In this document: positions 45,965-58,777 of the stretch, in pieces
Layout of the letters: each line of letters starts with the position of its first letter
Numbering within the stretch: position 1 is the stretch's first letter
DNA from: Halofilum ochraceum
GTDB lineage: Bacteria > Pseudomonadota > Gammaproteobacteria > XJ16 > Halofilaceae
Length of the DNA: 64,000 nucleotides
Assembly: GCF_001614315.2 (NCBI RefSeq)
Contig: NZ_LVEG02000005.1
Span: 186,001 to 250,000 of the forward strand
Reading direction: 5' to 3'
Position numbers and translations under genes: made by a program
Notes under the pieces: model-generated
Seen by the model: only the letters and a program-made list of their open reading frames with translations
Databases searched by the model: none
What the model was told of the DNA's origin: nothing

Positions 45965-46995
45965 GCAGGGTTTCCCTGAGGCAGATGTTCTTCGATATGA
46001 CGATCGATGCGATTGGGCACGTCCTTGCGCACCTCCAGCACGGCGATGTCGATGGCGTTGCCGAACGATACCGCATCCGCACCGCCATGGCTCTTGATGG
46101 CGATGCCCTGCAGACCGAGCAGGCTGGCCCCATTGTAGCGGCGCGGATCGATCCGGCGGCGCAGCGTGTTCAGGACCGGCAGCGCGATCAGGCCGATCAG
46201 CTTGTTCAGCAGCGTACGCCGAAACTCCTCGCGCAGGTAATGGCTGATCATCCGCGCGACCCCTTCGCTCGTCTTCAGCGATACGTTGCCGACGAAGCCA
46301 TCGCAGACGACCACGTCGGCCCGGTCACCGTAGATCTGGTCACCCTCGACATAGCCGATGTAGTTCAGGTCGCCGGCCGCAAGCAGACGTGCCGCCTGCT
46401 TGACCTGGTCGTTGCCCTTGATCTGCTCGGCGCCGACGTTCAGCAACCCGATACGGGGATTGTCGATGTTGTCGACGGCCGAAGCAACGATGGCCCCCAT
46501 CGTCGCGAACTGGGCGAGGTGTTCCGCCGTGCAGTCCACGTTGGCGCCGATATCGAGCATGTGCGTATGGCCCTGCAGCGCCGGGATCGCGGTGATGATC
46601 GCGGGCCGATCGATCCCCGGCAGCGTCTTGAGGACATAGCGGGCCGTCGCCATCAGCGCGCCGGTGTTCCCGGCGCTGACGCAGGCCTTGGCCTGATCCG
46701 AACGCACGAGGTCCAGCGCCACCCGCATCGACGAGTCTTTCTTCAGACGCAGTGCCTGCGCCGGCGGCTCATCCATGCCGACGGTCTGCGACGCATGCCG
46801 GATATGGAGCCGCTCCATGCGGCTGTCTCCGCTGCCCGGCAGTTCAGCACGCAGCACCGCCTCGTCCCCGACCAGCACGAGTTCGAGGTTCGGGTGACGC
46901 GAAAGCGCGCTCAATGCGGCCGGCACGACCACGGGCGGCCCGTGATCGCCGCCCATGGCGTCGAGCGCAATGGTCATGCGCGTGGGTTCATTCAT
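45961..46995 (-). CDS. plsX: Phosphate acyltransferase
   Basis: 344 aa. PlsX makes acyl-phosphate from acyl-ACP for phospholipid synthesis, acting at the membrane surface. Family motifs are DAMGGDHGP at the N-terminus, [13 protein letters not shown] and [18 protein letters not shown]. It lies between rpmF and fabH as in most gammaproteobacteria. Confidence 0.95.
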
Positions 46996-47040
46996 CGCGG
47001 GACGGACTGGCGGCCCCGGTGAGCGGGGCCGAGCGGCCTT

Positions 47041-47235
47041 TTAGTCTTCGTCTTCGTCGTCGTCACGGCTTTCCACGACCTGCCGGCCGCGGTAATAGCC
47101 CTCGGCCGAGACGTGGTGGCGCCGGTGCTGCTCGCCGGTCGTCGGCTCAGTGGAGAGCGTCGGCCCGCCGAGACTGTCATGTGCCCGCCGCATACCGCGT
47201 TTCGACGGGGTCTTACGCCCTTTCTGTACCGCCAT
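47041..47235 (-). CDS. rpmF: 50S ribosomal protein L32
   Basis: 64 aa. [20 protein letters not shown] is the conserved L32 N-terminus. The C-terminus has a [15 protein letters not shown] block and an acidic tail (DDDEDED), somewhat longer than in E. coli. Zinc-binding cysteines are absent, as in other Cys-less L32 forms. It stands 25 bp after yceD. Confidence 0.95.
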
Positions 47236-47260
47236 GGGAATCGATCTCCATCAATCACTA

Positions 47261-47794
47261 TCAACTGTTGTCAGCGTCGCCGGGATCGTCGAGATCCGCG
47301 AACGGACGCTGGGTACCCGCATCCTGCCCACTCATCCGCTCACTGTCGAAGACCTCGACCGCCGGTGCGCAATCGGAGGCATCCGGGCATTTCGCGATCA
47401 GGGGCAGCGCGAGGATCAGGTCGTCCTCGATCATGTCGACCGTGTGCATCGTCGCCCCGTTGCCGACCACCAGGGCGTCGACCTCCTCCGGGAGTGTCTC
47501 CGCTTCGGCCTCGCTGTCGACGAGCACGACCCCGATCGGCAGATCGAGGTCCAGCGCGTATGCACCGAGGCAGCGCTGACAGGTCAGCATGACACGGCCG
47601 CGGACACGGCCGGTCAGCACCCGACGCTGATTCTCGTCGCGCCCGAATTGCAGCTCGGCCGCGAATTCGCCCTCGCCGGAATCGAGCCAGTGGACCAGAC
47701 GCTTGCAGGCCGATACGGGCACGGTGCCCGACAGCGCACGGCCGCGATCGGCCAGTATCAGCGGGTCGACATGAACGGGCAAACGCTCGGACAT
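47261..47794 (-). CDS. yceD: DUF177/YceD family protein (23S rRNA accumulation protein)
   Basis: 177 aa from the ATG at 47794; the longer open frame upstream overlaps maf and is not conserved. The family pattern LTCQRCLGAYALDLDL, with its CxxC, is present, followed by an acidic region and a C-terminal DLILALPLIAKC segment. YceD homologues always accompany rpmF and affect 23S rRNA levels. It heads the rpmF-plsX-fabH operon. Confidence 0.9.
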   Translation of the reverse strand: MSERLPVHVDPLILADRGRALSGTVPVSACKRLVHWLDSGEGEFAAELQFGRDENQRRVLTGRVRGRVMLTCQRCLGAYALDLDLPIGVVLVDSEAEAETLPEEVDALVVGNGATMHTVDMIEDDLILALPLIAKCPDASDCAPAVEVFDSERMSGQDAGTQRPFADLDDPGDADNS

Positions 47795-47993
47795 AAGCCG
47801 GTGGATGCTACGGTGCCAGGCCGCGCGTGTCAAAGCGAACCGGCTCGGATACCCGGGATGATCCGTTGCGCAGGGTGTTGTCAGTTGGATGGACTGAATA
47901 TTGCCGCGCGGGCCGGCCTCCGTTAGGCTCCGGCGCTCCGGTGCCGCCGCTACCGGGACCCGACCACACGCCCTTCCGGTAATCGGATTCGCC

Positions 47994-48578
47994 ATGACCG
48001 CGCAGCGACTGCTCCTTGCCTCCACGTCCCCCTATCGCCGTGAATTGCTGGAGCGGCTGCGGGTGCCATTCGAGACCGTCCGTCCCGACTGTGACGAGAC
48101 GGCGCGGCCCGGCGAGGGACCCGCCGACCTGGTGACCCGGCTCGCGCGCGACAAGGCGGCCAGCGTAGCCGACCATGAGCGTGATGCCATCGTGATCGGG
48201 TCCGATCAGGTTGCAGCGCTCGGCGATCGGATCCTGACCAAGCCCGGCAACCACGAGACCGCCTTCGAGCAGCTTCGCGCGAGCAGTGGCGCCAGTGTGG
48301 TTTTTCACACCGGGCTGGCCCTGATCGACAGTTCCAGCGGGCGCGAGGCCTGCGTGCGTGTGGACTACACGGTGGATTTCCGCGATCTCGGCGACGACGA
48401 GATCGAGCGGTATCTGACCGCGGAGGCGCCTTGGGACTGCGCCGGCAGCATCCGATCCGAGGGCTACGGGATCGTATTGTTTCGACGGATGCACGGCGAC
48501 GATCCCACCGCTTTGATCGGTCTACCCCTGATTCAGCTGCGCAGCCTGTTAAGCGATTTCGGCTGGCCCCTGCCCTGA
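47994..48578 (+). CDS. maf: Maf/YceF nucleotide pyrophosphatase
   Basis: 194 aa from the ATG at 47994; the open frame begins earlier but lacks conservation there. The N-terminal LLLASTSPYRRELLERL and the DCDET and GSDQVAAL motifs are those of Maf proteins, which hydrolyse non-canonical or methylated NTPs. The STSPYRRELL form is closest to YceF (7-methyl-GTP pyrophosphatase). It is divergent from yceD with a 199-bp gap, the same arrangement as E. coli yceF-yceD. Confidence 0.93.
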   Translation: MTAQRLLLASTSPYRRELLERLRVPFETVRPDCDETARPGEGPADLVTRLARDKAASVADHERDAIVIGSDQVAALGDRILTKPGNHETAFEQLRASSGASVVFHTGLALIDSSSGREACVRVDYTVDFRDLGDDEIERYLTAEAPWDCAGSIRSEGYGIVLFRRMHGDDPTALIGLPLIQLRSLLSDFGWPLP

Positions 48579-48601
48579 CCCGTATACACCCACCGGGCGG
48601 G

Positions 48602-49087
48602 TCAGGCGATCGCCAGGCGGACCAGATGGAGCACCAGACAGGCGAAGGCGCCGGCGAGGATATCGTCGACCATGATCCCCGTACCGCCACTCACCCGGCG
48701 ATCCAGCCAGCCGATCGGCCATGGCTTGGCGATATCGAAAAGCCGGAACAGGACGAAACCGGCGATGACCCACGGCCATCCGCCCGGCAGCAGGAGCATG
48801 GTGACGAGATAACCCGCGATCTCATCCCAGACGATTGCCGGATCGTCGTGCACGCGCAGCCGTCGCGCCGCATAGCCGCACAACGGGATACCGGCCACCG
48901 CGACGACCACGGTGAGCGCGACCACAGCCGCGACCGGCAACGGCGCGATCAGCAGATAGAGCCCCACACCGACGACCGTACCGGCGGTCCCGGGCCCGCG
49001 CCGTGCAAGGCCGGATCCGAATCCAAGCGCCAGCAACAGCAGGGGGTCGCGGAGATGGGTCGGCCTGGCCGCACTCGGGTTCGACAT
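48602..49087 (-). CDS. pgpA: Phosphatidylglycerophosphatase A
   Basis: 161 aa. PgpA dephosphorylates the product of PgsA to phosphatidylglycerol. Motifs: GFGSGLARRGPGTAGTVVG at the N-terminus, DEIAGYLVTM and FRLFDIAKPWPIGWLDRRVSGGTGIMVDD at the active site, with membrane segments between. It follows thiL, as in E. coli, but with a 168-bp AT-rich gap. Confidence 0.94.
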   Translation of the reverse strand: MSNPSAARPTHLRDPLLLLALGFGSGLARRGPGTAGTVVGVGLYLLIAPLPVAAVVALTVVVAVAGIPLCGYAARRLRVHDDPAIVWDEIAGYLVTMLLLPGGWPWVIAGFVLFRLFDIAKPWPIGWLDRRVSGGTGIMVDDILAGAFACLVLHLVRLAIA

Positions 49088-49255
49088 GGTGACTCCCGGG
49101 TCGCGTTCTGGTTGTCCCCGGCGGCGCGGTCGGCCGACTCGCGGGCGACCATCACGGCGGCCGCTCGGGGCGAATAATCATTCAGGTCTATTCTTAACTT
49201 GTATTGGTAAGAACCTGTTTTTGCGATTCAATTTCGATTTTTTATCATTGACGGA

Positions 49256-50215
49256 TCAGGATCCGAAATGTCGATAGCCCGCTATCTCGGCCAGCGATGA
49301 ACGGCCCCCATCCAGCTCGACCAGTGCAAGACCTTCGGCGGCGGAGGTCCGTCCGATCCGGGTTACCGGCACGCCCCCCATCGCCGTCAGGCGATCGACA
49401 TCGAGGTCATCCGGTCCCGTGAAGCACAGCTCATAATCGTCGCCGCCGCCAAGCAGCCACGCACGCACCTGATCCGGAGAACCGGCGGCGGCGAGTTCCG
49501 GCGCGACCGGCAGCGCGCCGGCGTCGAGTTCCGCGCCCACGCCGCTGGCGGCCAGGATATGACCGAGATCGGCGGCAAGCCCGTCCGAGACATCGATACA
49601 GGCGCTTACGCCGGCGGCGGCCAGCTGCGGGCCGAGTCGGGTCCGCGGCTCCGGCCGGTTCAGCGCCGTGACCAGGGGATCGCCAGGCTCGTCCGTCGAC
49701 GCGAGACGCCGCGCGAGCCCAGCCGCCGCGCGGCCAGGCCAACCGGAAACGAATACCCCTTCGCCGCGGTGGGCCCCCGCCCGTGTCAGCCCCGTGCCGG
49801 ATTCGACGTAACCGGCGACCTGGACGGTGATGCTCAGACCGCCCCGGCTCATATCGCCGCCGGCAAGTGATATCCCTTCACGCTTGGCCAGCGCGCCGAA
49901 CCCGTCGGCGAAAGCGGCCAGCCATGACTCGTCGACGCCCGGACAGGTAAGCGACAACAGGCACCAGGCGGGTCGTGCCCCCGCCGCCGCGAGATCGCTC
50001 AGCCCACAGGCCAGGGCCTTCCAGCCGATATCGCCGGCCGCGGTCGCGGCCGGGAAATGGACGTCTTCGACCAGCGTGTCGATCGATACGGCGAGATCGC
50101 TGTGCGCGGGCGGGCGCAGCAGCGCGCAGTCGTCCCCGGGTCCCCGGAGCACGTCGTCGCCAGCGGGCGTGAGCCCGGCGAAGTAGCGGCGGATCAGATC
50201 GAATTCGTCGGCCAT
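49256..50215 (-). CDS. thiL: Thiamine-monophosphate kinase
   Basis: 319 aa. ThiL makes thiamine diphosphate from thiamine monophosphate and ATP. N-terminal GPGDDCALL and SIDTLVEDVHF bind metal and substrate. GDMSRGGLSITVQVAG, CIDVSDGLAADL and the C-terminal GGGDDYELCF are also typical. It lies 29 bp after nusB in the usual nusB-thiL-pgpA order. Confidence 0.95.
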   Translation of the reverse strand: MADEFDLIRRYFAGLTPAGDDVLRGPGDDCALLRPPAHSDLAVSIDTLVEDVHFPAATAAGDIGWKALACGLSDLAAAGARPAWCLLSLTCPGVDESWLAAFADGFGALAKREGISLAGGDMSRGGLSITVQVAGYVESGTGLTRAGAHRGEGVFVSGWPGRAAAGLARRLASTDEPGDPLVTALNRPEPRTRLGPQLAAAGVSACIDVSDGLAADLGHILAASGVGAELDAGALPVAPELAAAGSPDQVRAWLLGGGDDYELCFTGPDDLDVDRLTAMGGVPVTRIGRTSAAEGLALVELDGGRSSLAEIAGYRHFGS

Positions 50216-50244
50216 GACGGTTCCGCCCCATTCGACCGCGTGGG

Positions 50245-50694
50245 TCAGCTGGTTCGCCCGAACTCGCGCGGCCGCAGGCGCCGGGCCAGGCGATCGACCA
50301 CGCCGTTGACGAAGCGGTGCCCCTGCTCGGCGCCGAAGGCCTTGGCCAGCTCCACGGATTCGTCGATCACGACCCGGCTCGGTACTTCGAGGCGATCGCG
50401 CAACTCGTAACAGGCCAGGCGGAGAATGCCCCGCTCGACCGGATCGACCATCGCCACCGAGCGTTCGAGCAGTGGCGCGATCTGCGCGTCCAGCGCGTCC
50501 ACGTCGGCGGGAATGGCCCGCATCAGGTCGCGGAAGTATTCGACATCGGCGTTGCCGAGGTTACGGCCGTCGACGAACTGAATCAGTACGTCGTCGGGAT
50601 CGTCGCCGGACACCTGCCACTGATACAGGGCCTGGACGAGGAATCGGCGGGCGCGGCGCCGTCCGCTGCTGGCGCGCTGTCGGGATCCGCTCAT
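50245..50694 (-). CDS. nusB: Transcription antitermination protein NusB
   Basis: 149 aa from the ATG at 50694; the open frame upstream is inside ribH. NusB with NusE binds boxA RNA to prevent termination in rRNA operons. Family features: RRRARRFLVQALYQWQVSG and, later, ILRLACYELRD, VVIDESVELAKAFGAEQGHRFVNGVVD. Starts 5 bp after ribH. Confidence 0.94.
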   Translation of the reverse strand: MSGSRQRASSGRRRARRFLVQALYQWQVSGDDPDDVLIQFVDGRNLGNADVEYFRDLMRAIPADVDALDAQIAPLLERSVAMVDPVERGILRLACYELRDRLEVPSRVVIDESVELAKAFGAEQGHRFVNGVVDRLARRLRPREFGRTS

Positions 50695-50699
50695 CGTAT

Positions 50700-51170
50700 T
50701 CAGAGTTGCCGCATCAGGCTGATCATCTCGAGCGCACTGCCCGCGGCGTCGGCCCCCTTGTTGCCCGCCTTGGTGCCGGCGCGCTCCAGCGCCTGCTCGA
50801 TGGTATCCGTGGTCAATACGCCGAATGCGACCGGGATGCCATGACGCTGCATGGCCTGGCCGATACCGCGGCTGCACTCGCCGGCGACGTAATCGAAATG
50901 CGCGGTACTGCCGCGGATGACGCAGCCGAGCGCGACCACCGCGTCGTAACTGCCACTGCCCGCGAGGCGATCGACGACGAGCGGCAATTCGTAACAACCG
51001 GGCACGCGAACCACGGTCATGGCGTCATCATCGATCCCGCTGCGGCGCAGCGTATCGACCGCGCCGTTGAGCAGGGACTCCGTGATGAACCCGTTGAACC
51101 GGGTCACGGCCAGCGCGATCCGCGCATGCCCCGGCTGCAGTTCACCTTCAATCGTTCGGAGGTCGGTCAT
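50700..51170 (-). CDS. ribH: 6,7-dimethyl-8-ribityllumazine synthase
   Basis: 156 aa. RibH joins the RibB product with the ribitylamino-pyrimidine to form lumazine. Key segments: [32 protein letters not shown] and [21 protein letters not shown] with the catalytic histidine, then [17 protein letters not shown]. Precedes nusB in a standard order. Confidence 0.95.
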
Positions 51171-51220
51171 TCGGCGGATTCCCGTAATCGTATGGAGAAA
51201 CAGTATTTTACACTGATTAC

Positions 51221-52333
51221 TTAGTGTGTGATGTAATCCTCGATCTCGAGACCGAAGCCCGCGATGCCGTGGAAAATCTTGGGTGCGCTCATCAGATGCA
51301 TACGGCGCACGCCGAGATCCGACAGGATCTGTGCGCCGATGCCATAGGTGCGCAGGTCTTCGGGGGCCTCGCGCTGGCGCTCCTGCTCAGGCTGCCCGCC
51401 CGACATCTGATATTGATGGATACGCTGCACGAGGTCGCGCGCGTTTTCGGGCTTGCGCAGGATCACGACGACGCCGTCATCCTCCATATCGGCCACGCGC
51501 TGCATGGCGTCGTGCAGGGGCCAGCCACAGCCATGCTTCGCGCCAAGCGTATCGCAGAGCAGGTTCTCGACATGCACGCGCACATTGACCGGTCGATCGG
51601 GTGAGATATGCCCTTTGACCAGCGCCAGATGGAGGCCGTTCTCGATCGTGTCCTGATAGGCGTAGAGCCGGAACTCGCCGAATTGGGTCGGGAACTCCGT
51701 TTCGGCTACGCACTCGAGCGTCTTCTCATGCTGCATGCGGTAGCGGATGAGGTCCTCGATGGTCCCGATCTTGATGCCGTGCTGCTGCGCGAATTTCTCC
51801 AGGTCCGGGCGCCGGGCCATGGTGCCGTCGTCGTTGAGGATCTCGACGATGACGGCCGCGGGGTGGCGGCCTGCCAGTCGCGCCAGGTCACAGCCGGCCT
51901 CGGTGTGACCCGCCCGGGTAATGACACCGCCGGTCTGCGCCATGAGCGGGAAGATGTGGCCGGGCTGTACGAGATCCTCGGGGCGCGCTTCCTCGGCGAC
52001 CGCGGCCTGGACGGTACGCGCCCGATCCGCGGCCGAGATGCCGGTCGTCACACCCTCCGCGGCCTCGATCGAGACCGTGAAATTCGTCCGGTGTGCCGCC
52101 TGGTTGTCGCTGACCATCAGAGGCAGGCGCAATTGCTGACAGCGCTCGCGCGTGAGGGTCAGGCAGATCAGACCGCGCCCGTGCATCGACATGAAATTGA
52201 TGTCCTGCGGCCCGACCGCCTCGGCGGCCATGACGAGATCGCCCTCGTTCTCGCGATCCTCGTCGTCCATGATGATGACCATCCGCCCGCGGCGGATGTC
52301 TTCAATGATCTCTTCGATCGGGTCGAGCTGCAT
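51221..52333 (-). CDS. ribB: DHBP synthase with degenerate GTP cyclohydrolase II domain (RibBX type)
   Basis: 370 aa from the ATG at 52333 (GAGGGG upstream); an ATG at 52360 is possible. Residues 1-200 are RibB, which makes 3,4-dihydroxy-2-butanone 4-phosphate from ribulose 5-phosphate: [16 protein letters not shown] and [13 protein letters not shown] are intact. The C-terminal half is related to GTP cyclohydrolase II, but the zinc ligands C-x10-C-x-C are mostly gone: the segment reads [19 protein letters not shown], keeping only the last cysteine position. The second activity is thus probably lost, as in known RibBX hybrids. Confidence 0.88.
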
Positions 52334-52461
52334 GTTCCCCTCGTCGGATCGGGCCGCCAACGGCGATGGCGCTGACTGCGGGACCGGCCCGCGCCGGTCG
52401 CGCGAGCGCGGCAGGTTACACCGCGGGCGGTGTTGTTGCCAGTAGGCGAATCGCCCTGACC

Positions 52462-53136
52462 TCAGTGCGCTTTCGGGTCGGTCGCGTCATCCGCGAATCC
52501 GGTCCGCGCGAGCGTTTCGCGCGTGATACCGGCGGCCGGCGCATCGCCGCCCGTCAGCAGCCTCTCCAGGTAGCGGGCGATCAGGTCGACCTCGATATTG
52601 ACCGGATCGCCCGGCGCGCAGTCGGCGAGCGTCGTCATCGCCATCGTGTGCGGGACGATATTGACGCCGAATACGGCCCCGTCCACCTCATTGACCGTCA
52701 GGCTGATGCCGTCGACGCAGATGGACCCTTTCGGTGCGACGTAGCGCGCGAGCGTGTCCGGTACCCGGATCAGCAGGCGCCACGACTGCCCGTCCGCCTC
52801 GCGGCCGACGATCTCGCCGAGCCCGTCGACATGACCGGAGACCAAGTGACCGCCGAGCCGCGTGGTGGGCAGCAATGCGCGTTCCAGATTCACCCGGTCG
52901 CCCACGCCCCGCCCGCCAAGGCTCGTGTGCGCCAGTGTCTCGGCGGATACATCGGCATGGAAGCCGGTCGCGTCCGGGTCAACGGCGGTCAGACAGGTCC
53001 CCGCGACGGCGATGCTGTCGCCGGGCTGCAGGTCGCGCATCAGCTCCGCGCCGGGCTCGATGCGCAGGCGCCGGTCGCGCCCGTGCGAATCGACCCGCGC
53101 GATGTGGCCTACGGCCTCGACCAGTCCGGTAAACAT
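52462..53136 (-). CDS. ribE: Riboflavin synthase alpha chain
   Basis: 224 aa. RibE converts two lumazine molecules to riboflavin. Two lumazine-binding repeats are seen: MFTGLVEAVGHIA with DSIAVAGTCLTAV, and GHLVSGHVDGLGEIV with GSICVDGISLTVNEV. The C-terminal NIEVDLIARYLERLL is also typical. There is a gap of about 100 bp before ribB in which I see no FMN riboswitch. Confidence 0.95.
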   Translation of the reverse strand: MFTGLVEAVGHIARVDSHGRDRRLRIEPGAELMRDLQPGDSIAVAGTCLTAVDPDATGFHADVSAETLAHTSLGGRGVGDRVNLERALLPTTRLGGHLVSGHVDGLGEIVGREADGQSWRLLIRVPDTLARYVAPKGSICVDGISLTVNEVDGAVFGVNIVPHTMAMTTLADCAPGDPVNIEVDLIARYLERLLTGGDAPAAGITRETLARTGFADDATDPKAH

Positions 53137-53139
53137 GCT

Positions 53140-53736
53140 CTACTCCTCCACAACGGGATTGCGCAGCCTGAAACTGCGGCGGGTCAGTGGCAGACCGCTG
53201 CCCGCATCGAACTCTGCGCCGGCGGCGACCCCCGCTTCGGCCACTGCCTCGGCCGATTCCGCGCCGCCATAACAGGCATGCATCGCGCCCAGGGCATACT
53301 CGGCGCCGGAGCCGATCGCCCAGAAACGGGCGTACTCGTAGATCTCGCGCAGGGCGTAGACACCAAAGATGCCGTCCGGGCCCGCGATGAGCGCGTCGAT
53401 CCGCGAGGATTCGTAGGGATCGGTCTCGTCGCCGTTGTCTTCTTTGGGATTCAGGAAATAGTGTTCCTTTAATTCCGAATGCAGACGCCGAAAGGATTCA
53501 AATATCGACAGGCGGTCACGTAAATCAAACCGCACGCGCCGTTCGCGCAGCACACTGTCGAGCACGAGCGAATGCGCGGCGCTGCCCACAATCGCCATGG
53601 CGCCGTCCTCGACCGTCTGCAGCTTGTCACTGAAGCGGTCGTAGCGGGCGGTCTGTTTCTGCTCACCGAACGTGGTCAGTGAGTCCGCGGCGATACAGGC
53701 CGTGGAGCCGAGGCGAACGGCGACAACGGTGGACAT
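53140..53736 (-). CDS. Proteasome-like (HslV-fold) Ntn hydrolase family protein
   Basis: 198 aa. The N-terminus MSTVVAVRLGSTACIAADSL resembles the start of HslV and 20S beta subunits, where the residue after processing acts as nucleophile; here Ser2 or Thr3 could serve. Later WAIGSGAEYALGAMHACYGG and AEAVAEAGVAAG follow the HslV pattern GSGGxYAxAAAxAL and a helix pair. It is longer in the middle than HslV (FLNPKEDNGDETDPYES insertion). No HslU-type ATPase lies nearby. It is encoded between ribD and ribE with gaps of 3-5 bp, so co-transcribed with riboflavin genes. Substrate unknown. Confidence 0.7.
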   Translation of the reverse strand: MSTVVAVRLGSTACIAADSLTTFGEQKQTARYDRFSDKLQTVEDGAMAIVGSAAHSLVLDSVLRERRVRFDLRDRLSIFESFRRLHSELKEHYFLNPKEDNGDETDPYESSRIDALIAGPDGIFGVYALREIYEYARFWAIGSGAEYALGAMHACYGGAESAEAVAEAGVAAGAEFDAGSGLPLTRRSFRLRNPVVEE

Positions 53737-53741
53737 GGTGC

Positions 53742-54878
53742 TTACTCCCGATCGATCAGCGGCAATGCATGGATACGCAGATCGCCGCCGACGTGGCGGA
53801 CCTCGCGCAGGTGCAGCCGCGTGCGCTCGGCCATCGACGCCAGCGGGGTTATGGCGAACAGCCCGCGCGCGCTGTCGCCAAGCACCTGGGGCGCCATGTA
53901 GACGATGAGTTCATCGACATAGCTGGTCTCCAGCAGGCGACCGCAAAGCGTCGGACCGGCCTCGACGTGGACCTCGTTGACCTCGCGCCGACCCAGTTCC
54001 GCGAACAGCGCCGCCGGGTCGACGCCGTGATCGTCGCGGTCGCCCGGCAGCGGCACGATCTCGGCGCCGCGGGCCTGCAGGGCCGCCGCCGAGGCGGTTT
54101 CCGCGGAGCGCGTAAAAATCACCACCCGCTCATGCAGATCGAACAGACGTGCCGTCGGCGGAACCGTAAGGCCGGAGTCCACGATCGCGACCCAGGGCGA
54201 ACGCATGGCGGAAGGTGCCTCGTCTTCCGGCAGGCGGACCGTCAGCGCGGGATCGTCTGCGGCGACCGTGCCGCGGCCGGTCAGAATACAGGAGGCCCGT
54301 GCGCGCCAGCGGTGCACGTCCGTGCGGGCGTCCGCGCCGGTGATCCAGCGACTCTCGCCGGAGGCCAGCGCCGTGCGGCCGTCGAGGCTCATCGCCATCT
54401 TGATCCGTATCCACGGCCGCCCGGTCGCCATCCGCTTCACGAACCCGATATTGAGCGCTCGTGCATCCGGGGCGGACGCATCGAGTCGCTCGACCGCGAT
54501 CCCGGCCTCCGCGAGGTGGCCCGCGCCGGCACCGGATACCCGGGGATTCGGATCCCGCAGGGCATAGACGACGCGCGCCACACCCGCATCGATCAATGCA
54601 TCCGTGCAGGGCGGTGTGCGCCCGTGGTGGCAACAGGGCTCGAGCGTGACATAGACGGTCGCACCGGCCGCGGCCTCACCCGCCATCCCGAGCGCGGCCA
54701 CTTCCGCATGCGGCTCACCGACGCGCGCATGAAAGCCCTCACCGACCACCCGGCCGTCACGCACGACCACGCAGCCGACGCGCGGATTCGGGTCGGTCGT
54801 GTAGAGACCGCGCTGCGCGAGCCGCAGCGCCCGGGCCATCCAGGCGGTGTCGGTGCCGCTGGCCATGGACTCAGCCAT
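53742..54878 (-). CDS. ribD: Bifunctional riboflavin deaminase/reductase
   Basis: 378 aa from the ATG at 54878, which overlaps the nrdR stop; ATG 54866 is an alternative. The deaminase domain has [23 protein letters not shown] and the zinc ligands in [16 protein letters not shown]. The reductase domain contains [28 protein letters not shown] and [12 protein letters not shown]. It catalyses the second and third steps of riboflavin synthesis. Confidence 0.94.
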
Positions 54879-55386
54879 CCTCTCCGAGTCCCGGCAGGCC
54901 AAGCTGCGGGCGCGTGTCATCCCGCGGGTCCGGTTCACGCTCCAGGCGTTCGATCTCCTGACGGAAGGCGGCCACGTCCTCGAATTCCCGGTATACCGAG
55001 GCGAAGCGGATATACGCGACCTGGTCCAGGCGCCGCAGTTCCTCCATCACCCAGTCGCCGAGGCGGCGGGAATCGATCTCGCGCTCGCCATTGGCCCGCA
55101 GGCGCCGTCGGATGCGGTCCACGGCCGCGTCGATCGCCACGGTTTCGACCGGGCGTTTCTCCAGGGCCCGCATCACGCCGGCCCGGAGCTTGTCCACCGA
55201 GAACGTCTCGCGCGAGCCATCCCGCTTCACGATCCGCGGCAGGGCCAGATCGACGGCGCTCTCATACGTCGTGAAACGTTCGCCGCAGGCCGCGCATTCA
55301 CGGCGCCGGCGAACCTGCTCGCCCTCGTTCGCGAGGCGCGAATCGATCACGCGGGTCTCGGCGTGGTGACAGAAGGGACACTGCAT
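54871..55386 (-). CDS. nrdR: Transcriptional repressor NrdR
   Basis: 171 aa. A zinc ribbon ([17 protein letters not shown], then [12 protein letters not shown]) is followed by an ATP-cone ([19 protein letters not shown]). NrdR represses ribonucleotide reductase genes when dATP is high. It is the first gene of the riboflavin operon, as in E. coli, with a start only 70 bp from the divergent outer-membrane protein gene. Confidence 0.95.
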
Positions 55387-55456
55387 GGATGGCGTCGGGT
55401 TCCGGAGCGACTGAAGCGCGTTGAAGTATACGCGTCGAAGCGCCTATTCTGCACGG

Positions 55457-56203
55457 ATGAACGCTATATCTGGTGGCTGCTCCGGCCGGGCGCCCTGGCG
55501 CCTGGGCTGCATCGGGTTTTGCCTGCTGGCCTTCAGCACGCTGGCAGCGGCCGACGTGTCGGTACGCGGGCGCATAGGCGGTACCGTGGGCGGCGACCCG
55601 CAACCGGGTCTCGGCATCAACCTGCACGTCGAACGCACGGATCTCGACGTGCGCTACGACGATGGCAGCGCCGGCGACCGGCTGGAGGTCGGCCGTATCG
55701 GCGTCACCCTGTTCGAGTCTCCGGTGCCGGGTGTGCGCCTGGGCGTGTCCATCGGTCGTCAGGGGATCAGCCAGAGCGGACGTTCGACGACGGCGGGTCT
55801 CGACCCGGCCGGGTACTTTGTCGGCCTCGACGCCCTGGGGCGATGGGCTGTCACCCGGCGGCTGAGCCTGGAGCTCGGCGGACGGGTCGGTTACGCCGAG
55901 GCCGATGACAGCAGCGGCACGGAAACGGTCGATCTCGACTGGTGGAGCGCTACCCTGCGGCCGGCGGCGGCGATCACGCTGGGGAATCGCGTCGAACTCC
56001 GGGCCGGTCTGCGGGCCCAGTGGCTCGACGGCGATGAGCGCGTGACCGGCGCTACACGCTCGACGGTCGGCTTCCGCGAGGACCGGGTCACGGGGGGATT
56101 CGTCGGCATCGGTCTGCTGACCGGCAATGGCGGCCGCGTGCATCTACGCGCGGATACGGGCGCGGCCCGCGGGTTGCAGCTCGTGTTCGAGCGGCGTTAC
56201 TGA
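55457..56203 (+). CDS. Predicted outer-membrane beta-barrel protein
   Basis: 248 aa from the ATG at 55457. Residues 1-32 form a signal peptide (LGCIGFCLLAFSTLAAA). The mature part is a series of alternating amphipathic strands (GDRLEVGRIGVTLFES, VRLGVSIGRQG, LSLELGGRVGYAE, VELRAGLRAQWLD) and ends in FERRY with a terminal tyrosine, the usual signal for the Bam machinery. About 8-10 strands fit a small barrel. The family is not known to me. It ends 5 bp before the convergent acyl-CoA dehydrogenase stop. Confidence 0.75.
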   Translation: MNAISGGCSGRAPWRLGCIGFCLLAFSTLAAADVSVRGRIGGTVGGDPQPGLGINLHVERTDLDVRYDDGSAGDRLEVGRIGVTLFESPVPGVRLGVSIGRQGISQSGRSTTAGLDPAGYFVGLDALGRWAVTRRLSLELGGRVGYAEADDSSGTETVDLDWWSATLRPAAAITLGNRVELRAGLRAQWLDGDERVTGATRSTVGFREDRVTGGFVGIGLLTGNGGRVHLRADTGAARGLQLVFERRY

Positions 56204-56207
56204 GCGT

Positions 56208-57647
56208 TCACCGTGCCGCCGCCAGGGCGCTGGCGGTCCATTCGGCGAAGCCGCGGAACACGGGCTCGACCTCCGCCTCCCGCTCCGCCCGCGGACGTGC
56301 CAGCAGCGCGTCGATGTCGGCCCGTTGTCGGTCGGCGCCGGCCGGGTCGCCAAGCCACCGGATCAGGTCTTCGTGCACGCCTTCCCGGGCCATCACGGCA
56401 AGGCCATCGAGCATCTGCCGATGGGGCGTGCCTTCCCAGACCGACAGCACCAGCGCCTCACGCAGGAGCCGTTCGATCCCGTAATCGACGATCAGCCCGT
56501 TGCCGCCATGGGCCTCGATCGCCCAGCGCCCGGCCGCGACCGCCTGCTCCGCCGTCCAGTACTTGGCGAGGTGGGCGAGCAGCCGGAACCGGTGATAACG
56601 CTGACTGTAGGGCGGCGTCTCCTGCCAGACGGCGTCGAGTTCGCCGGCCGCGGCCCAGGCCAGCGCGGATGCCTCACGGAAGCGCCGGCACCGGTCCTCG
56701 AATTGCCGCCGGAACAGCGGCTGTTCGATCAGCGGCTGGCCGAAGACGATCCGCTCGCGCGCGAACGCCAGGGTCTCCGCCAGTGCGCGCTGCAGCAACG
56801 CGGCACTGGCGATGCTGTTCGCCACCCGCGAGACGTTCAGCACCTCCATGATGAGGTAGATGCCCTGCCCCGGGTCTCCGACTGGACGGGCTTCACTGCC
56901 TTCGAGACCGATCTCGCCGGTCGCCACGGAACGGGTCGCGATCTTGTCTTTCAGGCGCCGGATCCGGAAATTGAGCGACTGGTCCGCGGCGAGGCGCGGG
57001 ACCGCGAACAGCGCGAGGCCGTGTACCCCGGTCGGCGCATCTGCAGGGCGCGCCGCCACCAGCGCGAGTTCGGCGTCGGCGTTGCTCGCGAAATGCTTTT
57101 CTCCGGTCAGGCGCCAGCCGTCGCCGGCCGGATCGGCGCGGGTCTCGACGCCCGCACCGAGATCGGAACCGCCAGCGGCCTCGGTCATCCAGGTGGCGCC
57201 CTGCCACACGGAACCGTCGCGTCGGGTCAGACGCCCGATCCAGTCGGAAGTGCCCGGGCCGCCATACTTCTCGAGCGCGACCAGCGTCGCCAGCGACACC
57301 GTGTGGGGACAGTAGAGCCCGGGATCGAAGAAACTCGTGACATAACCGACACGATAGCCGGGCAACAGCGACCCGGTCTCGTGCGTGGCCGCGACCGTGC
57401 CCTCGGCATAGCCGCGCAGCAGCATGTCGCGATAGCCCGCAGACCAGCACACCCGATCGATCCGGCGACCGATCCGGTCATGCAACTGCAGACGGGCCCC
57501 ACCGACGCGATCCACATCCCGGGAGATCGCTTCGCCGTGTGCGTGCCACCACTGCGCGTAGCGCTGTAGACGCTCGCGCTCGCCGTCGCCCGCACAGCCG
57601 TCGACTGCATGGTCGGCCGGTGAGTCCAGCGTATCCACGACCGTCAT
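56208..57647 (-). CDS. Acyl-CoA dehydrogenase family protein
   Basis: 479 aa. FAD/substrate motif MTEAAGGSDLGA and a W-R-L-T-G-E-K-H-F-A-S-N segment are typical of the AidB-like/long ACAD subfamily. The C-terminal part contains AHGGNGLIVDYGIERLLREALVLSVWEGTPHRQMLD, with the ACAD-like EGT region. It probably oxidises an acyl-CoA with an electron-transfer flavoprotein; substrate unclear. The N-terminal 100 residues (RYAQWWHAHGEAI) resemble AidB-like proteins. It stands alone. Confidence 0.82.
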   Translation of the reverse strand: MTVVDTLDSPADHAVDGCAGDGERERLQRYAQWWHAHGEAISRDVDRVGGARLQLHDRIGRRIDRVCWSAGYRDMLLRGYAEGTVAATHETGSLLPGYRVGYVTSFFDPGLYCPHTVSLATLVALEKYGGPGTSDWIGRLTRRDGSVWQGATWMTEAAGGSDLGAGVETRADPAGDGWRLTGEKHFASNADAELALVAARPADAPTGVHGLALFAVPRLAADQSLNFRIRRLKDKIATRSVATGEIGLEGSEARPVGDPGQGIYLIMEVLNVSRVANSIASAALLQRALAETLAFARERIVFGQPLIEQPLFRRQFEDRCRRFREASALAWAAAGELDAVWQETPPYSQRYHRFRLLAHLAKYWTAEQAVAAGRWAIEAHGGNGLIVDYGIERLLREALVLSVWEGTPHRQMLDGLAVMAREGVHEDLIRWLGDPAGADRQRADIDALLARPRAEREAEVEPVFRGFAEWTASALAAAR

Positions 57648-57718
57648 GGCTGCACCTCCACCCGCGACCGCGGTGTCGCTGCCGGTTCAGGGCAATCCGA
57701 TCCCGCGGTGACCGGTCT

Positions 57719-58777
57719 CTATCCGGCCGCAGGTTCCGCGGCCGGCCGACCGAAGAAATACCCCTGCATCATGTCAACGCCCAGCGTCCGCATGAAATCG
57801 CGCTGAGAGGCCGTCTCGACCCCCTCGGCAAGCACACGGCGTCCCCGGGAGCGGGCAAGCCCGATGATTGCACGGCAGACCTCGGCATGCCCTTCCGACT
57901 GATCGGCACGGGAGACCACACCGCGATCGATCTTGATCAGGTCCGGATCCAGATCCGCCATCAGCGAGAGTCCGGAATAGCCGGCTCCGAGGTCATCCAG
58001 CGCCGCCTGAAAACCATGTTTTCGGTAATAGCACAGGATGTCTCGGAGGTGATCGTGGTCCTCGATGGCCTCGGTCTCGACCACCTCGAAGACGATCTGC
58101 TCCGGGCGCAATCCGGTTCCCTCGATCGCGCCCACGGTGGTCCGGAGACAGAACTCCGGCTCATAGATCACGCTCGGCAGGAAATTGATCAGGAACAGGT
58201 GGTCGTCGCCGACCCCGCTCGCCGCGGCCCGGGCGATATGGATCTCCCGGCAGACGCGGTCGAACATGAACAGCAGGTTCTCATCCCGGGCCCAGCCGAT
58301 CAGTTCCCCCGGGGAAATCAGACGTCCGTCGTCCGGATGGTGGGCCCGTACCAGACACTCGTGCCCCACAACGGTTTCAGAGCGGCCGTCGACCACGGGC
58401 TGGAACCATGTTTCCAGCGCACGGGCCTCGAGCAACCCGGCCAGCGGACTGTCCTGGCGTGGGACGAATTCGGTCATGGGTTCCGCACGCAGCAGACGCC
58501 CGGTCTGCTCGCGCAATGCGGTATCTTCCAGCCAGGTCGCCCGGATTTCGCGCGCGCCGCGCTCGCCGACGAGCCCGGCGACCAGATCGAAAATCCCGGA
58601 AACACCGTCGAAGCGTGTGCCGGGGCCGACATCGGCGACGGCCGTGCCCAGCTCGTCATCCCATTCCCAGCCGAAGCGCTCGATCGCGTTTCCCAGTTCC
58701 GGGTTCTCGTCCACGAGCCGTCCGAATACGAGCCCGATACTCCGGCGACTGCTCTGACATGCGCAGGAATGCTGCAT
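57719..58777 (-). CDS. EAL-domain protein, probable c-di-GMP phosphodiesterase
   Basis: 352 aa. The N-terminal 115 residues are unknown. EAL domain from about residue 130: TVVGHECLVRAH in place of EALLR (Glu kept, Ala to Cys), NFLPS, EVVETEAIED, ALDDLGAGYSGLSLMADLDPDLIKIDRGVV and VLAEGVET. The metal-binding Glu, Asn, Asp-Asp and Lys residues remain, so activity is plausible, but the ECL variant and altered LDDLGAG loop are unusual. No GGDEF domain. Confidence 0.83.
   Translation of the reverse strand: MQHSCACQSSRRSIGLVFGRLVDENPELGNAIERFGWEWDDELGTAVADVGPGTRFDGVSGIFDLVAGLVGERGAREIRATWLEDTALREQTGRLLRAEPMTEFVPRQDSPLAGLLEARALETWFQPVVDGRSETVVGHECLVRAHHPDDGRLISPGELIGWARDENLLFMFDRVCREIHIARAAASGVGDDHLFLINFLPSVIYEPEFCLRTTVGAIEGTGLRPEQIVFEVVETEAIEDHDHLRDILCYYRKHGFQAALDDLGAGYSGLSLMADLDPDLIKIDRGVVSRADQSEGHAEVCRAIIGLARSRGRRVLAEGVETASQRDFMRTLGVDMMQGYFFGRPAAEPAAG

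Follow-up and report, generated by a model that had tools for sequence, protein, structure and literature searches.

The window, by which we mean the whole stretch of 64,000 nucleotides of Halofilum ochraceum DNA that was analysed, carries a riboflavin operon on its minus strand. The gene order, assigned with Pfam, is nrdR-ribD-BPH-ribE-ribBA-ribH-nusB-thiL-pgpA, where BPH denotes a "betaproteobacteria proteasome homologue". The features are listed in window coordinates, together with the basis of each assignment.

54871..55386, minus strand: nrdR (ORF and Pfam)
53742..54938, minus strand: ribD, deaminase/reductase (mechanical ORF and Pfam)
53745..53749, minus strand: Shine-Dalgarno-like GGGAG for BPH, at the ribD 3' end / stop (sequence reading)
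53140..53736, minus strand: BPH gene, Ser1-type, 198 aa including Met1 (ORF, ATG start)
53430..53451, minus strand: part of the acidic BPH pore loop, roughly residues 96-102 of 96-110 (alignment, approximate; low model confidence)
53143..53149, minus strand: Shine-Dalgarno-like GGAGGAG for ribE, within the last BPH codons (sequence reading)
52462..53136, minus strand: ribE, riboflavin synthase (ORF and Pfam)
51221..52360, minus strand: ribB plus a GTP-cyclohydrolase-II-like domain, ribBA/ribBX-like (ORF and Pfam)
50700..51170, minus strand: ribH, lumazine synthase (ORF and Pfam)
50245..50700, minus strand: nusB, corresponding to the C-terminal portion of a longer mechanical ORF (ORF and Pfam)
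49256..50215, minus strand: thiL-like AIRS protein (ORF and Pfam)
48602..49087, minus strand: pgpA (ORF and Pfam)

The mechanical ORF of ribD overlaps nrdR, and the true start of ribD therefore probably lies downstream of 54938. Reading of the sequence gives a spacer of 5 bp between ribD and BPH (53737-53741) and of 3 bp between BPH and ribE (53137-53139), which confirms the first-pass annotation in placing a proteasome-like gene 3-5 bp from both rib genes. Its remark that a partner ATPase is missing holds for the operon, in which no ATPase gene is found; hslU is not adjacent to the BPH gene either, the neighbours being rib genes according to Pfam. A Pfam Proteasome search of the organism's own genome reported a single place, a separate hslV on another contig, and the ORF that follows it was judged by eye to be hslU. 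No FMN riboswitch or other Rfam family was detected at the gathering threshold in 46000-58000. In a crude scan of 52300-55600 no internal promoter was found near BPH, and terminator-like sites numbered five, against a mean of 1.2 in shuffled sequences.

The GTP cyclohydrolase II half of RibBA (51221-52360, minus strand), which is the sole PF00925 match in the genome, lacks what we take to be the canonical Cys pattern of RibA and is RibBX-like. Among 23 genomes (its own and 22 others; loci L199-L227; codes with G, L and f stand for genomes, loci and families), the canonical RCDCG-type motif was present in four (G009, G027, G053 and G234) and a degenerate motif in 17; in G012 and G016 the patterns used caught neither. 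The degenerate motif occurs both with and without BPH.

The gene product is a BPH, a proteasome-fold Ntn hydrolase whose nearest relatives are BPH proteins and not HslV or 20S beta subunits. With phmmer, the BPH chains 5OVU and 5OVS were matched at E-values of 1.8e-43 and 1.5e-36, versus 1.2 and weaker for HslV, and a profile of 14 relatives matched BPH at 9.9e-81 and 1.1e-59, versus 5.8e-9 or weaker for HslV. An AlphaFold2 model of the protein (pLDDT 80.4, pTM 0.81; residues 96-110 below 50) was compared with known structures by Foldseek; for this predicted model ranks 1-6 were crystal structures of BPH (TM 0.81-0.83 relative to the query), followed by HslV and 20S beta. The HslV-like Ntn-hydrolase fold put forward in the first-pass annotation is thus borne out at the level of predicted structure, and a fold unlike that of Ntn hydrolases, which it had named as grounds for abandoning the proposal, is not what was found. 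Contrary to what had been stated there, the protein is not an orphan, since phmmer, profile and Foldseek all assign it to BPH; the HMM and structure comparison that had been proposed supports the HslV-like fold but points to BPH, not HslV itself, as the nearest relative. The window protein shares its fold and N-terminal nucleophile with the HslV of HslVU; it scores far below the NCBIfam equivalog cut-offs (14.1 versus 157.75 and 13.8 versus 137 bits) and its own genome has a separate hslV. Identity as HslV was rejected on these scores, with which phmmer and profile agree. No Anbu-named entry was present among the Pfam, NCBIfam, phmmer and profile matches or the best 50 Foldseek matches listed, from libraries that may not contain Anbu models. 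Since the Pfam Proteasome score of the window protein (19.5 bits) falls below the cut-off of 22.4 and the genome search finds hslV alone, routine annotation can miss the BPH gene.

Within the literature covered, no paper was found that ties riboflavin genes to HslV, Anbu or proteasome-like genes; an earlier mention, for instance in the 2008 BPH paper or in figures and supplements, is possible, so that priority is uncertain. The first description of BPH is reportedly that of Valas and Bourne in 2008. In the parts of PMC5777263 covered here, BPH is described as an HslV descendant that forms a tetradecameric double ring, has lost the HslU-contact residues and has no partner ATPase that could be found. 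The Thr1 BPHs showed no activity on standard peptides or casein, a Thr1 BPH was modified by epoxomicin and MG132, and carbonylation patterns were the same with or without BPH (PMC5777263, same parts). PMC8665760, PMC8138137 and PMC6213913 are also among the papers that mention BPH. The word riboflavin is absent from the main texts of PMC5777263, PMC8665760 and PMC8138137, and the sole literature match for Ntn hydrolase together with riboflavin synthase was a domain survey (PMC6922389). The window protein resembles the BPH of 5OVU, 5OVS and 5OVT in sequence, profile and fold, in the lack of a propeptide, in the site residues, in the acidic pore loop and in the absence of an ATPase neighbour. 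It differs in having Ser1 instead of Thr1, a variant known from BPH outside Betaproteobacteria, and in its rib operon context, the prevailing contexts described being argG, pyruvate dehydrogenase (PDC) and Hsp33 (PMC5777263, same parts); the side residues of the site, moreover, vary within the rib-linked group. The suggestion of the first-pass annotation that a link between protein turnover and flavin synthesis had not been described stands in so far as the rib context is unreported in the literature covered, whereas the missing ATPase and the Ser nucleophile are already published features of BPH. What is new here is the conserved position of BPH in the rib operon of many gammaproteobacteria.

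In an even draw of 370 genomes from the class, BPH was matched at E<=1e-3 in 76 genomes and at E<=1e-20 in 43; the weaker matches we take mostly for HslV. The gene lies in the rib slot in 30 of the 43 (among them G173, with a frameshifted copy, and G322, whose contig shows the ribE side only), after nrdR without rib genes in two, and elsewhere in 11 (including G166, where the copy is cut off by the contig end). Four further orders were picked for a known rib-linked copy, and their rates are therefore biased, whereas the class draw is unbiased. BPH is present in 21 of the 23 genomes of the order of G127, always in the slot (in G789 divided between two contigs); in nine of 14 in that of G046, eight intact in the slot plus G173 (the contig of G807 shows the ribE side only); and in 5/5 and 3/3 in the orders of G011 and G053. 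G793 and G794, which alone in the G127 order lack BPH, have no riboflavin synthase match, which may reflect co-absence and riboflavin auxotrophy or assembly gaps. In the order of G628, which its tree relatives mark as Burkholderiales-like, 61 copies were found in 59 of 150 genomes; within flanks of about 1.5-2 kb, rib-operon genes lie beside none of the 61, hslO beside 22, aceF beside seven and none of the genes asked for beside 32. A draw from the phylum gave BPH at E<=1e-20 in 9/299 genomes, two of them rib-linked (G000 and G082) and seven without a rib neighbour.

From the several draws together, 103 copies were tabulated: 54 rib-linked (52 with both ribD and ribE seen, two at contig ends), two nrdR-adjacent and 47 other. 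Represented among the rib-linked copies are 13 family codes and a single named MAG (KatS3mg121), but one family accounts for 20 of the copies. Recurrence of the slot in 54 of 103 copies, as in 30 of 43 in the class draw, indicates that the neighbourhood is not due to chance, so that the conservation between ribD and ribE which the first-pass annotation had proposed to check is real. Dropped before this count were second loci (L002, L016, L017, L018, L020, L021, L022, L024, L066 and L154), the frameshifted copy of G173 (L057, L139, L140 and L161), the split copy of G789 (L131 and L132), a contig-end fragment (L059, G166) and L060 of G221, for which BLAST gave no match. L004 and L105 encode identical proteins, each counted, and the 30 loci L169-L198 are outside the 103 and included only in the gap and neighbour tally. 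Two genomes carry two BPH copies each (L105/L186 in G754, one of which starts with MST, and L171/L187 in G785). In G037 (L054, 4700-6415) a putative aminopeptidase gene (PF10023) is separated by only some 10 bp from a divergent BPH-like gene of the Ser1 type on the same strand, and the two may form a peptidase pair.

In phmmer and profile alignments, Ser2 of the window protein aligns with the mature Thr1 of BPH, directly after Met and without a propeptide, and Asp18, Lys38, Gly51 and Ser143 correspond to Asp17, Lys37, Gly50 and Ser139, which the parts of PMC5777263 covered name for Td-BPH. Of the two nucleophiles that the first-pass annotation considered, Ser2 is retained and Thr3 rejected, as the latter falls opposite the second residue of mature BPH. 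Position 2 carries Ser in 54/54 rib-linked and 2/2 nrdR-adjacent copies, and in five of the 47 others, 42 of which have Thr; a loss of the nucleophile across homologues, which would have spoken against the proposal, is thus not seen in the rib-linked copies. Copies of the G628 order start with MTT (58/61) or MST (3/61), later loci included. Every one of the 103 copies has Asp18 and Lys38, and 53 of the 54 rib-linked ones have Gly51, the remaining copy having an ambiguous base. Since Ser/Thr needs just five changes on the BPH tree and 20 of the 54 copies are from one family, the association of Ser1 with the slot rests on few independent events. At the position that we take to be equivalent to proteasome Asp166, rib-linked copies have Asn (39/54) or Asp (11/54), versus Asp in 44/47 of the others, and the Ser139 position is Ala in 13/54 rib-linked copies; the window protein retains Asp and Ser at these positions. 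The pore loop (residues 96-110) is acidic in all 54 rib-linked copies, with a net negative charge of at least 3 and on average 4.9.

With the start codon nearest the match taken in each case, ribE begins <=26 bp after the BPH stop codon in 48 of 52 loci, and in 12 the two genes share one base; BPH begins <=26 bp after the ribD stop codon in 40 of 52, with three outliers of 230-550 bp. The long ribD-BPH gaps are those of L115 (G792; 550 bp), L118 (G803; 249 bp) and L120 (G791; 230 bp). BPH is under purifying selection and at least as constrained as the neighbouring rib enzymes: dN/dS of the window versus G001 is 0.06 for BPH, 0.08 for ribE and 0.10 for ribD, and versus G002, where dS is high, 0.09, 0.23 and 0.21, respectively. 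Mean identity over 37 loci is 57% for BPH, 54% for RibE and 51% for RibD. Evolutionary distances over the same loci correlate between BPH and RibE (r 0.54) and BPH and RibD (0.56), values reached in 0/2000 permutations, and between RibD and RibE (0.71); for the far pairs (626/666) the values are 0.23, 0.39 and 0.60. These comparisons cover only loci with both ribD and ribE seen, leaving out 14 of the 20 f125 copies and L038. The congruence of BPH with the rib enzymes is weaker than that among the rib enzymes, so that some exchange or rate effects are possible.

On the BPH tree (90 rows) the rib label requires 3 changes, versus 29.7 in shuffles. When the tree is rooted on HslV, whose branch is very long, a clade of 34 Thr1 copies of betaproteobacterial type (97/98) is nested among the rib-linked copies; the branches that make the rib-linked copies paraphyletic are weak (83/91 and 83/90). 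A single clade of rib-linked copies appears in 0% of 200 bootstrap trees and is compatible with the AU test without the long branches (p-AU 0.474). Tree and AU test omit 14 of the 20 f125 copies, and the AU test also seven long-branched rows and HslV. A single old entry of BPH into the rib operon fits these data.

The best explanation, to which as a whole we give about an even chance, is that the gene encodes a Ser1-type, ATP-independent BPH peptidase with a general clean-up role, which has long been part of the rib operon and is closely packed within it. Met1 would be removed to expose Ser1, as the small second residue suggests, and the observed Lys37 and Asp17 would activate it, by analogy with work on BPH and the proteasome. 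The subunits most likely build a closed double ring like that in BPH crystal structures, and substrates would be small or unfolded, entering past the acidic pore loop without an unfoldase. As an old cistron of nrdR-ribD-BPH-ribE, tight on both sides, BPH is probably produced in parallel with riboflavin synthase. Its likeliest role would be the clean-up of damaged or unstructured polypeptides, the rib operon supplying steady expression and not defining the substrate, although its substrate may possibly belong to flavin metabolism. The BPH identity, invariant core residues, packing, constraint, published BPH traits and non-obligate rib link count in favour. Against a clean-up role count the inertness of the published Thr1 BPHs and the unchanged carbonylation. 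The altered residues by the nucleophile in the rib-linked group (Asn in 39/54, Ala in 13/54) also count against this explanation, and the fixed ribD-ribE place in 13 family codes exceeds what a mere need for expression predicts. The weights given to the alternatives below partly overlap with this explanation, in which the operon already serves chiefly to provide steady expression.

We consider it unlikely, though far from negligible, that BPH is a dedicated flavin-linked protease, tuning the amount or assembly of RibE and RibD or clearing unassembled flavin enzymes and apoflavoproteins, hence the fixed place. The same slot in 13 family codes and the named MAG and in 21/23 genomes of the G127 order, the tight packing with ribE, the contrast in Ser1 (54/54 rib-linked versus 5/47 others) and the lack of a ribE match in both BPH-less genomes of that order (assembly gaps being possible) are in line with such a role. 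The link to the rib genes, however, is not obligatory. Among 19 BPH-less genomes outside f45 and f125, 18 yielded a ribE match, in each case with ribD directly upstream, the matches being 12-301 bp apart and no BPH match lying between them; in g526 the ribD-ribE junction is empty in 4/5 cases, the fifth contig beginning at ribE. The copy of G173 (L057, 4122-4693) sits in the rib slot in three pieces in different frames, with intact matches to the surrounding rib genes. In f133 (G234 and G312) BPH follows nrdR, with ribD-ribE-ribBA elsewhere without BPH (L048, L163 and L165); in G234 ndk and rlmN lie behind BPH (L048, 2120-5243). The empty junctions, the in-place frameshift and the f133 arrangement are evidence against a dedicated flavin role, as are the 12 changes in slot presence on the weakly resolved RibE tree (63 rows) and the BPH-RibE correlation, which is lower than that of RibD-RibE.

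It is also doubtful that BPH is a passenger. In that case the gene would have entered a constitutive operon long ago and have been retained by chance and through polarity on ribE; its function would be unrelated to flavins, or its reading frame would matter mainly for structural or translational reasons. The other contexts found elsewhere (hslO in 22/61, aceF in 7/61), the f133 arrangement, the losses and the frameshifted copy would agree with this, but the dN/dS of 0.06 indicates purifying selection, and the invariant core catalytic residues imply that the protein product matters. Finally, a small-molecule amidase or damage-control enzyme whose Ntn site acts on a side product of the riboflavin pathway appears very improbable: the inertness of the tested BPHs on standard peptides and the altered site periphery of the rib-linked copies would suit it, but a Thr1 BPH binds the peptide-like epoxomicin and MG132, the acidic pore loop is kept, and an obvious amide was not identified in any flavin intermediate. 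A precedent for a non-pathway domain retained in a rib operon is COG3236, fused to RibA and described as cleaving early intermediates in the parts of PMC5312566 covered; it belongs to another enzyme class, and its pathway link is published, whereas that of BPH is a proposal.

Crystal structures of BPH exist, yet the 2018 study found neither activity on model substrates nor a partner. The Ser1-tied rib slot offers a narrow genetic handle: the operon is small, its metabolites (lumazine, FMN and FAD) are defined, and there are natural lineages that have BPH, lack it or carry a broken copy. Should a flavin role apply, which we hold to be rather unlikely, a Ser1 proteasome-like barrel would serve flavin metabolism as a dedicated component across a wide range of Gammaproteobacteria, exerting ATP-free control of riboflavin synthase or flavoprotein supply, and the rib operon may be the ancestral home of the core BPH, later left by the Thr1 betaproteobacterial copies. 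If the link is functional, protein turnover would be joined to the supply of vitamin B2; if not, BPH would be a clear example of a long-lived operon passenger.
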